Shown: one piece after another, positions 58,262-61,277 of the stretch
Numbering within the stretch: the first letter of the stretch is position 1
How the letters are laid out: the number at the start of each line of letters is the position of its first letter
Assembly: GCA_011523425.1 (NCBI GenBank)
Contig: WTGU01000120.1
Coordinates: forward strand, 1 to 64,000
DNA: 64,000 nt
Direction of reading: 5' to 3'
Origin: Alphaproteobacteria bacterium
Lineage (GTDB): Bacteria; Pseudomonadota; Alphaproteobacteria; UBA828
Position numbers and translations under genes: made by a program
The notes under the pieces: model-generated
Databases searched by the model: none
Seen by the model: only the letters and a program-made list of their open reading frames with translations
What the model was told of the DNA's origin: nothing

Positions 58262-59608
58262 TCAGGCGGCTTCGGGCACGCCGCAACGCTCCAGCGCTGC
58301 GCCCTGACGGCGGGCCAGTCGGACGGCGTCGAACTCCTCGATCAGCGCCTCGACCAGCCGGTGCCAGTTGAGCTCCGCCTTCAGGTGGAGGAAGACCGAG
58401 CCGAGGCCGATCGCCGAGCGATCCATCAGCACGAACTCGCGCGGCGGGGTGACGCCGCCGAGCCGCCGTATCTCCCGGTGCACCTTGGCGGCGACCGCGC
58501 CACCGAAACGGCCGCTGCCCGATTCGTCGATGAGCCGGGTGCGGTCGTCGACCAGGGGCCCGTAGATGTAGTTCGCCCAGATGTTGAGCGCGTCGACCAT
58601 CTCGTTCGAGAGGTCGCTGAATCCCCAGGTCTCGTAGGCGTGCACCGCGAGCTCGCGATCGTCGTCCCGCACCGCGTGGTAGAGGTCGATCACGCCCTGC
58701 ACGAAAGGGCCTCCGAACACGCGGATGCAGCCATAGTCGAGGAGGTTGACCGCGCCGTCGGGGCGCACCGTGTAGTTGCCAAGGTGGGGGTCGCCGTGGA
58801 GCACGCCGTAGCGGTAAAATGGCACGTACCAGGCGTTGAACATGTGCAGCGCGATCGCGTTGCGCCGCTTGGCCGGGGCGTCGGTAAACTCGAGCAGCGG
58901 GGCGCCGCCGAGCCAGCTCATGGTGAGCAGCCGCTTCGTGGAAAGCCCCGGCTCCACCACCGGCACGTGAACGCCGGGCTCGTCCTCCAGCATCGCGCCA
59001 TAGAGAGCCATGTGGCGGGCCTCGCGCTCGTAGTCCAGCTCCTCGCGCAGCCGGGCCGCGATTTCGGCGTGAATCTCGGCGGTGTCGATCGCCCGGTCGT
59101 AGCGGGCATAGACGGCGAAGATCAGCTTGAGCTGGCGGATGTCGGCCGCCACCGCCGACGCCATGTCGGGATACTGCAGCTTGCAGGCGAGCGCCGCGCC
59201 GTCGTGCCCGGCCGCGCGGTGTACCTGGCCGAGAGAAGCCGCCGCCGCCGCCTCGGTCTCGAACTCGGCGAAGGCCTGTCGCCAGTCCGGGCCGAGCTCG
59301 GCCGCCATGCGCCGCTTGACGAAGCCCCAGCCCATCGCCGGCGCCCGCGACTGCAGCGCGCCGAGTGCCTCGGCATACTCGTCCGGAAGGCCGCCGGGAA
59401 CGGTCGCGAGCAGTTGCGCGACCTTCATCAGCGGTCCCTTGAGGCCGCCCAGTGCGCGCCGCAGCTCCTCGGCGTTCCGCTCCCGGTCGGCGGGCAGCCC
59501 CAGATAGCGCTGGCCCGCCATACGGGCGGCGATGCCGCCCACCGAGGTACCGACCCGCGCGTAGCGGCGCACGCGCCCGCTCAGCCTGTCATCCTCGCGT
59601 TCCGGCAT
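58262..59608 (-). CDS. ABC1/UbiB family kinase-like protein
   Basis: A 448-residue member of the ABC1/AarF/UbiB family of atypical kinases/ATPases linked to ubiquinone synthesis and lipid homeostasis. The family N-terminal KxGQ motif appears as KVAQ (residues 62-65), with Ala for Gly; the alanine-rich loop is AAAAASLGQVHRA, the catalytic loop HGDPHLGN and the metal motif NLLDYG. No C-terminal membrane segments are seen, unlike UbiB. The KxAQ form may alter nucleotide selectivity. Stands alone on this strand, divergent from the small cysteine-rich protein gene. Confidence 0.87.
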   Translation of the reverse strand: MPEREDDRLSGRVRRYARVGTSVGGIAARMAGQRYLGLPADRERNAEELRRALGGLKGPLMKVAQLLATVPGGLPDEYAEALGALQSRAPAMGWGFVKRRMAAELGPDWRQAFAEFETEAAAAASLGQVHRAAGHDGAALACKLQYPDMASAVAADIRQLKLIFAVYARYDRAIDTAEIHAEIAARLREELDYEREARHMALYGAMLEDEPGVHVPVVEPGLSTKRLLTMSWLGGAPLLEFTDAPAKRRNAIALHMFNAWYVPFYRYGVLHGDPHLGNYTVRPDGAVNLLDYGCIRVFGGPFVQGVIDLYHAVRDDDRELAVHAYETWGFSDLSNEMVDALNIWANYIYGPLVDDRTRLIDESGSGRFGGAVAAKVHREIRRLGGVTPPREFVLMDRSAIGLGSVFLHLKAELNWHRLVEALIEEFDAVRLARRQGAALERCGVPEAA

Positions 59609-59828
59609 GATCGGCGTCCCGGTGCCTCACCCTTGCGTCCTCGGGCGGCGTCCCGCGACGCCGTCCCCGACATGCGCCATGATAACACGGCGGTAAGGGT
59701 CTCTATTCGCGTGGTTTTCAGCCGTTGCGGCGGCGCAAGTCGGCGGATCAAGAGCGATCACATTCTTGCGATGTCGGTCGTTCGCCCCTTCCCGCCGTTC
59801 CATGCTTGGCCCATCATTCCGGCAGGTT

Positions 59829-59861
59829 GCATGCGAGACGCCTGCACGGGCGGTCGCATGC
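59829..59861 (+). promoter_or_regulatory. Leader hairpin before the cysteine-array gene
   Basis: GCATGCGA (59829-59836) and TCGCATGC (59854-59861) are complementary, with CGCC/GGCG extending the stem inside. TTGC and GCAA flank it on either side. It lies 35 bases before the ATG, between the upstream region and the ribosome site (GAGGAGAGG at 59880-59888). It could be a leader structure that tunes translation; no known riboswitch class is recognised. Confidence 0.45.
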
Positions 59862-59895
59862 GGCCGCAAGCAAAACCAACGAGGAGAGGCTACCG

Positions 59896-60099
59896 ATGAT
59901 CAAAGAGACCGTGATTGCCGTCAGCGTCGTGACCATGGCGGCGGGCGCCGCGCTTGCACCCTCCGCCGTCTCGGCCGCCGACCAGCCGATTGTCGTCGCA
60001 TCGTGTAATCCCTGCGATCCGTGCGGCGCTTGCAATCCCTGCGATCCGTGCGGCGGTTGCAATCCCTGCGACCCCTGCAATCCGTGCGCCAGCGGCTGA
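59896..60099 (+). CDS. Secreted cysteine-array mini-protein (CxxC repeats)
   Basis: A 67-residue protein with a signal peptide ([20 protein letters not shown], cut near SAADQ). The mature part ends in ten cysteines with perfect spacing of three: Cys37, 40, 43, 46, 49, 52, 55, 58, 61 and 64, mostly as CNPCDPC units joined by GA or GG. No family with known function is recognised. The array could bind thiophilic metals like a tiny metallothionein, be cross-linked, or be modified; no modification enzyme gene is adjacent. It has its own leader hairpin and a strong terminator, so it forms a one-gene unit. It is probably a real gene: GAGGAGAGG lies upstream. Confidence 0.8.
60004..60078 (+). repeat. 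27-base tandem repeats within the cysteine-array gene
   Basis: Unit 1 is 60004-60030, unit 2 is 60031-60057, and unit 3 is partial from 60058. Each unit encodes CNPCDPCG(A/G), and units differ at only two or three bases. The small number of differences suggests recent slippage or duplication, so copy number may vary between strains. Confidence 0.85.
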
Positions 60100-60121
60100 G
60101 CGGCTGACGCGTTATCTGAGG

Positions 60122-60156
60122 AGGACGCCGTCCCGATGGGGCGGCGTTCTTTTTTT
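60122..60156 (+). terminator. Rho-independent terminator of the cysteine-array gene
   Basis: GGACGCCGTCCC (with GU pairing) and GGGGCGGCGTTC form a stem around GAT, followed by seven T residues (60150-60156). It lies 23 bases after the stop of the mini-protein gene and separates it from acdS. This is the clearest T-tract terminator in the window. Confidence 0.85.
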
Positions 60157-60263
60157 GGGCCGGACCCAGGCCATGCGTGCGTGCCCGCCCACCGGTGGAC
60201 GCGGCAGGGCCGGTTGTGGTGGGATTGAGAGGGCCCCGGCCGGTGCAGGAGCGAGCGACGCGA

Positions 60264-61277
60264 ATGCTGGACAAGTTCGAACGCTATCCGCTGACCTTCG
60301 GCCCGACTCCCATCGAGAAGCTGAGCCGGCTGTCCGAGCATCTCGGCGGCGCAGTCGAGCTCTACGCCAAGCGCGAGGACTGCAATTCGGGCCTCGCCTT
60401 CGGCGGCAACAAGGTACGCAAGCTCGAATACATCGTTCCGGACGCCATCGCGTCGAACGCCGATACCCTCGTCACCATCGGCGGAGTCCAGTCGAACCAT
60501 ACGCGCCAGGTCGCCGCGGTCGCCGCCAAGCTCGGCATGAAGTGCCGCCTGGTGCAGGAAAGCTGGGTGCCGTTCGAGGACGCCGTCTACGACCGGGTCG
60601 GGAACATCCTGATGAGCCGCGTCATGGGGGCGGAGATCGAGCTGGTGGACGAAGGCTTCGACATCGGCATCAGGGAGAGCTGGGAACGGGCGATCGAGGA
60701 CGTGAAGGCGCGGGGCGGGAAGCCCTACGCCATCCCGGCCGGCGCCTCGGTTCACAGGCTGGGCGGGCTCGGCTACGTCGGCTTCGCCGAGGAGGTGCGG
60801 GCGCAGGAGGAGGCGCTCGGCTTCAGGTTCGACTACGTCATCGTCTGCACCGTCACCGGCTCGACCCATGCCGGCATGCTCGTCGGCTTCGCCAAGGACG
60901 GGCGCGCCGCGCGGGTGGTCGGGATCGACGCCTCCGGCACGCCGGCCCAGACGCGCGCCCAGGTCATGGAGATCGCCCGCAACACGGCGGAGCTCGTGGC
61001 GCTCGGCCGCGAGATCGCGGACGACGATCTCGTGCTGCTCGAGGACTACGCCTATCCCGCCTACGGCGTGCCGTCTGCCGAGACCAACGACGCGATCCGC
61101 CTCGCGGCCCGCACGGAAGGGATGATGACCGATCCCGTCTACGAGGGGAAATCCATGCAGGGGATGATCGACCTGGTACGGAAGGGCTACTTCCCGTCGG
61201 GCTCCAGGGTGCTCTACGCCCATCTCGGCGGCGTGCCGGCCATCAACGGCTACAGCTACGTCTATCGCAACGGCTAG
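60264..61277 (+). CDS. acdS: 1-aminocyclopropane-1-carboxylate deaminase
   Basis: A 337-residue PLP enzyme, one residue shorter than the reference AcdS. It splits the plant ethylene precursor ACC into 2-oxobutanoate and ammonia. PLP Lys50 is in [18 protein letters not shown], followed by [14 protein letters not shown]. The residues that separate true ACC deaminases from D-cysteine desulfhydrases, Glu295 and Leu322 in the reference, are present as Glu294 (VYEGKSMQG) and Leu321 (AHLGGVPA). No acdR regulator is next to it. Suggests access to plant- or alga-derived ACC. Confidence 0.94.

Follow-up and report, generated by a model that had tools for sequence, protein, structure and literature searches.

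The stretch of alphaproteobacterial DNA analysed here (64,000 nucleotides, hereafter the window) carries a small gene for a predicted exported, cysteine-rich mini-protein of 67 amino acids (59896..60099, plus strand; ATG at 59896, TGA at 60099). Its product begins with a predicted class I signal peptide of 27 residues (59896..59976, plus strand), recognised by its hydropathy peak and by a leader common to a paralogue in the same genome, with cleavage predicted after AVSA. Between it and the cysteine array (60004..60087, plus strand), in which ten Cys codons recur with a 9-nt period, is a short linker, IVVAS. The cysteines occupy residues 37, 40, 43, 46, 49, 52, 55, 58, 61 and 64, and all nine gaps equal 3, as stated in the original prediction of a secreted protein with ten exactly spaced cysteines. 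TGY codons at this period form a run of 10 in the gene; the longest run is 3 in the remainder of the window, and shuffled sequences never exceed 4. The tandem 27-base coding repeats of that prediction are also present (three repeats, 60004..60084, plus strand): 60004-60030 and 60031-60057 are 93% alike, and the third, from 60058, has diverged (70%). The description of the array as CNPCDPC units was slightly too narrow, as CNPC and CDPC units are accompanied by CGAC and CGGC. We rejected a possible lipobox (xxASC), since it lies too far from the h-region and the paralogue on contig C122 has lost the first Cys; cleavage by signal peptidase I is more likely.

A probable ribosome-binding site, AGGAGAGG (59882..59889, plus strand), lies 6 nt before the ATG and is kept in the orthologue of a sister genome. 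Downstream is an intrinsic terminator (60118..60156, plus strand), a hairpin with its stem proper at 60118-60154 (fold z −4.1) followed by T7; both orthologue and paralogue keep it, and the seven-T terminator was thus correctly called. The predicted RNA stem-loop in the 5′ leader, upstream of the coding sequence (59822..59867, plus strand), folds at z −3.5; the syntenic orthologue lacks this sequence, and its fold there is not significant (z −1.1). A consensus scan at the locus listed no sigma-70-like promoter and also missed the terminator. The idea of a self-contained expression unit with its own leader hairpin therefore stands for the terminator, while the hairpin lacks conservation and no such promoter was found. 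A stretch upstream of the gene, GCGATCACATTCTTGCGATG (window 59750-59785), has a similar counterpart at the orthologous locus and is a possible promoter or operator. Of the flanking genes (window 58262-61277), the one on the minus strand encodes an ABC1/UbiB-like kinase and the one on the plus strand an ACC deaminase-like protein; their functions look unrelated to the mini-protein gene.

The gene is syntenic in the sister genome G016 (orthologue on G016:C129), where genes for the ABC1/UbiB kinase and ACC deaminase again flank it, and all ten cysteines of the two proteins align. For the whole gene dN is 0.077 and dS 0.67 (dN/dS about 0.11), for the array alone 0.13 and 1.46, and for the neighbouring ACC deaminase gene 0.033 and 0.38. 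With dN well under dS and every Cys matched, the codon comparison indicates purifying selection on the array, even with variation at D/N and G/A positions. The open frame on which the original prediction depended is kept in orthologue and paralogue alike. Taken with the relatives described below, these comparisons show that the gene is real and selected, and that its product is a probably exported member of a conserved family with partners.

We found no significant match to the mini-protein in Pfam, NCBIfam or the PDB, and none in plasmid records. The homologue search and neighbour analysis that had been proposed did uncover relatives in many genera, with recurrent neighbours that include DUF6969. 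Of the genomes sampled from the order, 18 of 22 matched; an HMM built from 16 mini-proteins (the NPC HMM) matched 54 of 386 from the Alphaproteobacteria, and 34 of 398 in the phylum sample were positive. Thalassospira and Aestuariispira are cultivated relatives with the genes. NPC relatives extend to other Pseudomonadota, where a single family outside the class supplies 21 positive genomes. Across the arrays the unit is NPC and the gaps between cysteines are mostly 3 (930) or 6 (445), so the CxxC spacing of the window protein is one version of a broader repeat, which we describe as Asn/Asp/Gly-x-Cys with a Cys every 3 or 6 residues. Open-access text contained no paper on DUF6969 or on CNPCNPC, and other repeat strings returned only unrelated engineering, chemistry and tumour-modelling papers. 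These results suggest a widespread bacterial family of exported NPC-array proteins for which we found no description.

Signal peptides are seldom conserved in sequence. In this family two classes are unusually conserved across bacterial families. The class I leader (M[LI]K[KE]T...) occurs in 14 of 38 mini-protein family-groups, and the class II leader (RLLS[GST]TV[IV]P...) in 16 of 30 groups of NPC-P460 proteins (below) and 9 mini-protein groups. Among 783 neighbouring control ORFs the expressions matched 0 and 2 times, respectively, a descriptive contrast since they were written after inspection of the data. Given how rare such conservation is, a recognition step acting on the leaders is a reasonable inference. 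The window mini-protein combines a conserved leader and an NPC array with a DUF6969 gene in its genome.

The original prediction saw no obvious partner gene. This holds at the window locus and is wrong for the family, in which DUF6969, an NPC-array P460/c′-beta cytochrome, a secreted FGE-like protein and a cytochrome c recur at the paralogous and orthologous loci. In the window's own genome, contig C122 encodes the paralogue with the shared signal peptide and, 4.4 kb beyond it, a protein of 416 aa that combines a large NPC array with a Cytochrome_P460 domain at its C terminus; a cytochrome c gene comes next, and DUF6969 is on the same contig. In several relatives about 2.3 kb separate the mini-protein gene from the NPC-P460 gene, an interval that contains DUF6969 and the secreted FGE-domain protein.

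The haem domain of the alphaproteobacterial partner has the P460/c′-beta fold (model pLDDT 88.2; Foldseek probability 1.0 to 7s5o, 2je2 and 9hqt), and its CxxCH haem site is invariant. An invariant K81, the candidate haem-crosslinking Lys, falls on Met79 of NeCP-beta in gapless register, with the HMMER alignment two columns off. The fold is the one known from cytochromes P460 and c′-beta, and the NPC partner differs from these in its additional N-terminal array. NPC arrays of the cytochrome partners contain up to about 100 Cys, and we found no cysteine-rich member in the text of a 2025 review. Every such haem domain found beside DUF6969 in 80 named loci has an upstream Cys stretch. In Betaproteobacteria and in the family outside the class, the NPC array is instead fused to a SoxA/TsdA-type domain. 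That two different haem domains carry the same array argues that the array is a functional module. Three loci of the latter family (L271, L272, L273) have pairs of NPC mini-protein and NPC-SoxA/TsdA cytochrome, and after these comes a multihaem cytochrome that weakly resembles the ExtKL selenite/tellurite proteins.

DUF6969 (PF22308) was present in 94 of the 386 alphaproteobacterial genomes sampled (about a quarter), distributed as 50 of 54 NPC-bearing genomes and 44 of 332 others (Fisher p about 1e-31, uncorrected for phylogeny). The two genes lie no more than 8 kb apart in 37 genomes of 23 families, and among the 80 named DUF6969 loci an NPC ORF was found no further than 6 kb away in 29, compared with 0 of 80 in a reversed-sequence control. 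The protein has invariant HxH and EHGHFH motifs and a further invariant His (His139), and a fold search of the PDB with its structure model (pLDDT 88.8) gave no match. Where DUF6969 occurs without an NPC gene close by, the neighbourhood still keeps genes for FGE-like, TAXI-TRAP, UspA, cytochrome c and rhodanese proteins. One DUF6969 locus with an alphaproteobacterial-type neighbourhood sits in a cyanobacterial record (L203, Phormidium willei contig LSZA01000129) and is probably contamination.

Neighbours were counted by family-group (about 60), and DUF6969 leads with 37, a count inflated by loci that were chosen through it. It is followed by the FGE-like protein (19), cytochrome c (12), TVP38 (11), MerA-like reductase (10), TAXI-TRAP (10), YeeE-type sulfur transporter (9), a cupredoxin-like protein identified by motif (9), DUF302 (5) and rhodanese (5+3). 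The FGE-like neighbour has an FGE-sulfatase domain and scores well under the cut-offs for EgtB, OvoA, PvdO and SenA; it differs from the FGE/EgtB/SUMF1 family in an invariant CGxC loop. This loop, GGSWDDxGCGxCRPAAR, is nearly invariant in its sequence as a whole (L009:12007-12870 and orthologues), and the CGxC proteins may form a new, possibly Cu- or thiol-using subfamily. General formylglycine formation was rejected, since the FGE motif CxPxR, as CNPCR, is found in only a few arrays. A second conserved context consists of TVP38/TMEM64 (VTT), a MerA-like FAD disulfide reductase, an NPC mini-protein and a sensor histidine kinase, and adjoins the yidC/rnpA region (L086, L087, L088, L090, L092, L093, L103, L105). 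TAXI-type TRAP transporters and UspA recur near DUF6969 and NPC-P460 genes (L106, L114, L117, L226, L229) and at NPC-less DUF6969 loci, and secreted proteins that look DUF3179-like by eye recur near NPC genes (L237, L238, L276, L282). One alphaproteobacterial NPC/DUF6969 locus (L276:1810-4295) has adjoining ORFs that read by eye as MerT- and MerR-like.

Two loci illustrate the sulfur context. In Sulfuritalea, genes for an NPC-SoxA/TsdA cytochrome, an NPC mini-protein, DUF6969, a cupredoxin-like protein, DUF302 and a YeeE-like protein lie on one strand. Genome G551 has, in order, rhodanese, two YeeE halves, a 77-aa NPC mini-protein, DUF6969 and a second rhodanese, ahead of soxC and a cytochrome c gene; soxC (NCBIfam equivalog, 604 bits against a cut-off of 420) is about 3 kb and soxY about 7 kb from the NPC/DUF6969 cluster. 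YeeE and DUF302 genes have been reported from sox clusters (PMC11582611, PMC11034169). Dependence of the NPC system on Sox was nevertheless rejected, as SoxY is not enriched in NPC genomes: outside the class it was found in 4 of 28 NPC-bearing genomes and 26 of 52 without NPC. SoxY was not found in the window's genome or in the control genomes of that search. Sulfur genes are missing from the surroundings of many alphaproteobacterial NPC loci, the YeeE of the window's genome stands apart from its NPC genes, and the window locus is without the pairing of sulfur-oxidation cytochrome and transporter seen in G551, Sulfuritalea and partly elsewhere.

Where the original prediction offered metal binding, cross-linking and modification as guesses, gene context adds sulfur or thiol redox, which we rank first. 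We tentatively place the mini-protein in a haem-linked module for sulfur or thiol redox chemistry, as a periplasmic carrier with many thiols that DUF6969 may help to mature. After Sec export these thiols would carry or buffer a cargo in the periplasm, most likely sulfane sulfur or other reactive sulfur, which the mini-protein would exchange with an array-bearing cytochrome (P460/c′-beta in Alphaproteobacteria, SoxA/TsdA in other Pseudomonadota) that takes up the electrons. Before the array is exported, it may be prepared or modified by cytosolic DUF6969, which has conserved His motifs. As a paralogue located away from the partner cluster on C122, the copy in the window would act in trans with that cluster. 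Sulfur is placed first because independent lineages pair NPC and DUF6969 with SoxA/TsdA domains, YeeE, rhodanese, DUF302 and sox genes. Besides the SoxY and YeeE results and the NPC loci that lack sulfur genes, two points count against it: the P460/c′-beta haems are known for NO and hydroxylamine chemistry, not for sulfur, and CxxC arrays are classic metal ligands. The role proposed resembles that of SoxYZ, in which a periplasmic protein thiol bears sulfane sulfur and is accompanied by a SoxA-type cytochrome and a YeeE-type transporter. SoxY has a single C-terminal carrier Cys, whereas the mini-protein is without the SoxY domain of Pfam and has ten Cys, with up to about 100 in the family.

The main and serious rival, which we consider possible and somewhat doubtful, is that the spaced thiols buffer soft metals in the periplasm, such as Cu(I) or Zn, and so protect or load the cytochromes, much as a metallothionein might do if exported, or a bufferin if left unmodified. 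The CxxC spacing of the array fits this, as does the CGxC of the secreted FGE-like neighbour, which falls in what we take to be the loop region of the Cu-dependent FGE cysteines; the cupredoxin-like neighbour (9 family-groups, inferred from its motif), the MerA-like reductase (10 family-groups) and the MerT- and MerR-like ORFs at a single locus point the same way. However, the recurrent neighbours of NPC genes include no copper ATPase, no Cu-responsive regulator and no MNIO, many members space their Cys by 6 (NPCAAKNPC) and are without CxxC, and Pfam, NCBIfam and the PDB reveal no relation to metal-binding families. Metallothioneins are similarly small, rich in Cys and spaced in a CxxC-like manner, but the mini-protein is predicted to be exported and has a strict NPC unit, and it matched no metallothionein in the same three libraries.

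A RiPP-like peptide, whose leader would be recognised and whose array cysteines would be modified before or after export by DUF6969, alone or together with the FGE-like protein, is unlikely, though compatible with the other readings. The near-obligate co-occurrence and adjacency of DUF6969, its invariant histidines on a model without a PDB fold match, and the two conserved leader classes favour it, and the Sec-exported MNIO substrates are a precedent, with preliminary evidence of signal-peptide recognition from the bufferin work (PMC12452194). Against it, 44 sampled genomes combine DUF6969 with no detected NPC protein, DUF6969 is missing from some NPC genomes, and MNIO is absent. We know of no catalytic activity of DUF6969. 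The bufferins (BUF1/BUF2), MNIO-modified RiPPs, are likewise small, Sec-exported and Cys-containing, with a cytosolic partner encoded next door, and the mini-protein shares their predicted Sec signal peptide (from sequence and hydropathy) and several Cys. They are described with few conserved Cys, in contrast to an NPC-unit array with DUF6969 as partner and family arrays fused to cytochromes. We rejected a bufferin identity, since the genome (99% completeness) has no MNIO (DUF692, PF05114) where control genomes were positive, and the mini-protein matches no bufferin profile or BUF-type Cys pattern in Pfam or NCBIfam. A freyrasin-like ranthipeptide was also rejected (NCBIfam NF037957, 11.7 bits, E 0.2, cut-off 30 bits).

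It is improbable that the arrays are structural envelope proteins cross-linked by disulfides in the manner of cornifin or keratin: their Cys repeats are proline-rich and of high copy and one array has weak Cornifin-like Pfam similarity, but composition explains that similarity, the 40-residue mature peptide is small for scaffolding, and the arrays associate with cytochromes, DUF6969 and redox enzymes. That the gene is an artefact, a frame open by chance across a GC-rich repeat, or encodes an sRNA is barely credible given the dN/dS, the frame kept in orthologue and paralogue and a family across many genera, and of two weak sub-threshold Rfam sRNA matches the better (20 bits against a gathering score of 191) aligned mainly on the terminator hairpin.

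A bolder reading, which we regard as rather unlikely, is that DUF6969, as a metal-dependent maturase of a new kind, would read the conserved signal peptide and modify the array thiols, so that arrays and array-tagged haem proteins together would form a multi-site periplasmic sulfur (or metal) shuttle. The results describe a widespread pseudomonadotan system in which predicted exported Cys arrays are joined by haem proteins bearing such arrays and by a DUF whose fold has no known relative. In the libraries searched, neither a family profile nor any text matched this system. The results also tie the uncharacterised DUF6969 to a concrete partner and to probable thiol/haem redox chemistry, which makes the functions of both directly testable.
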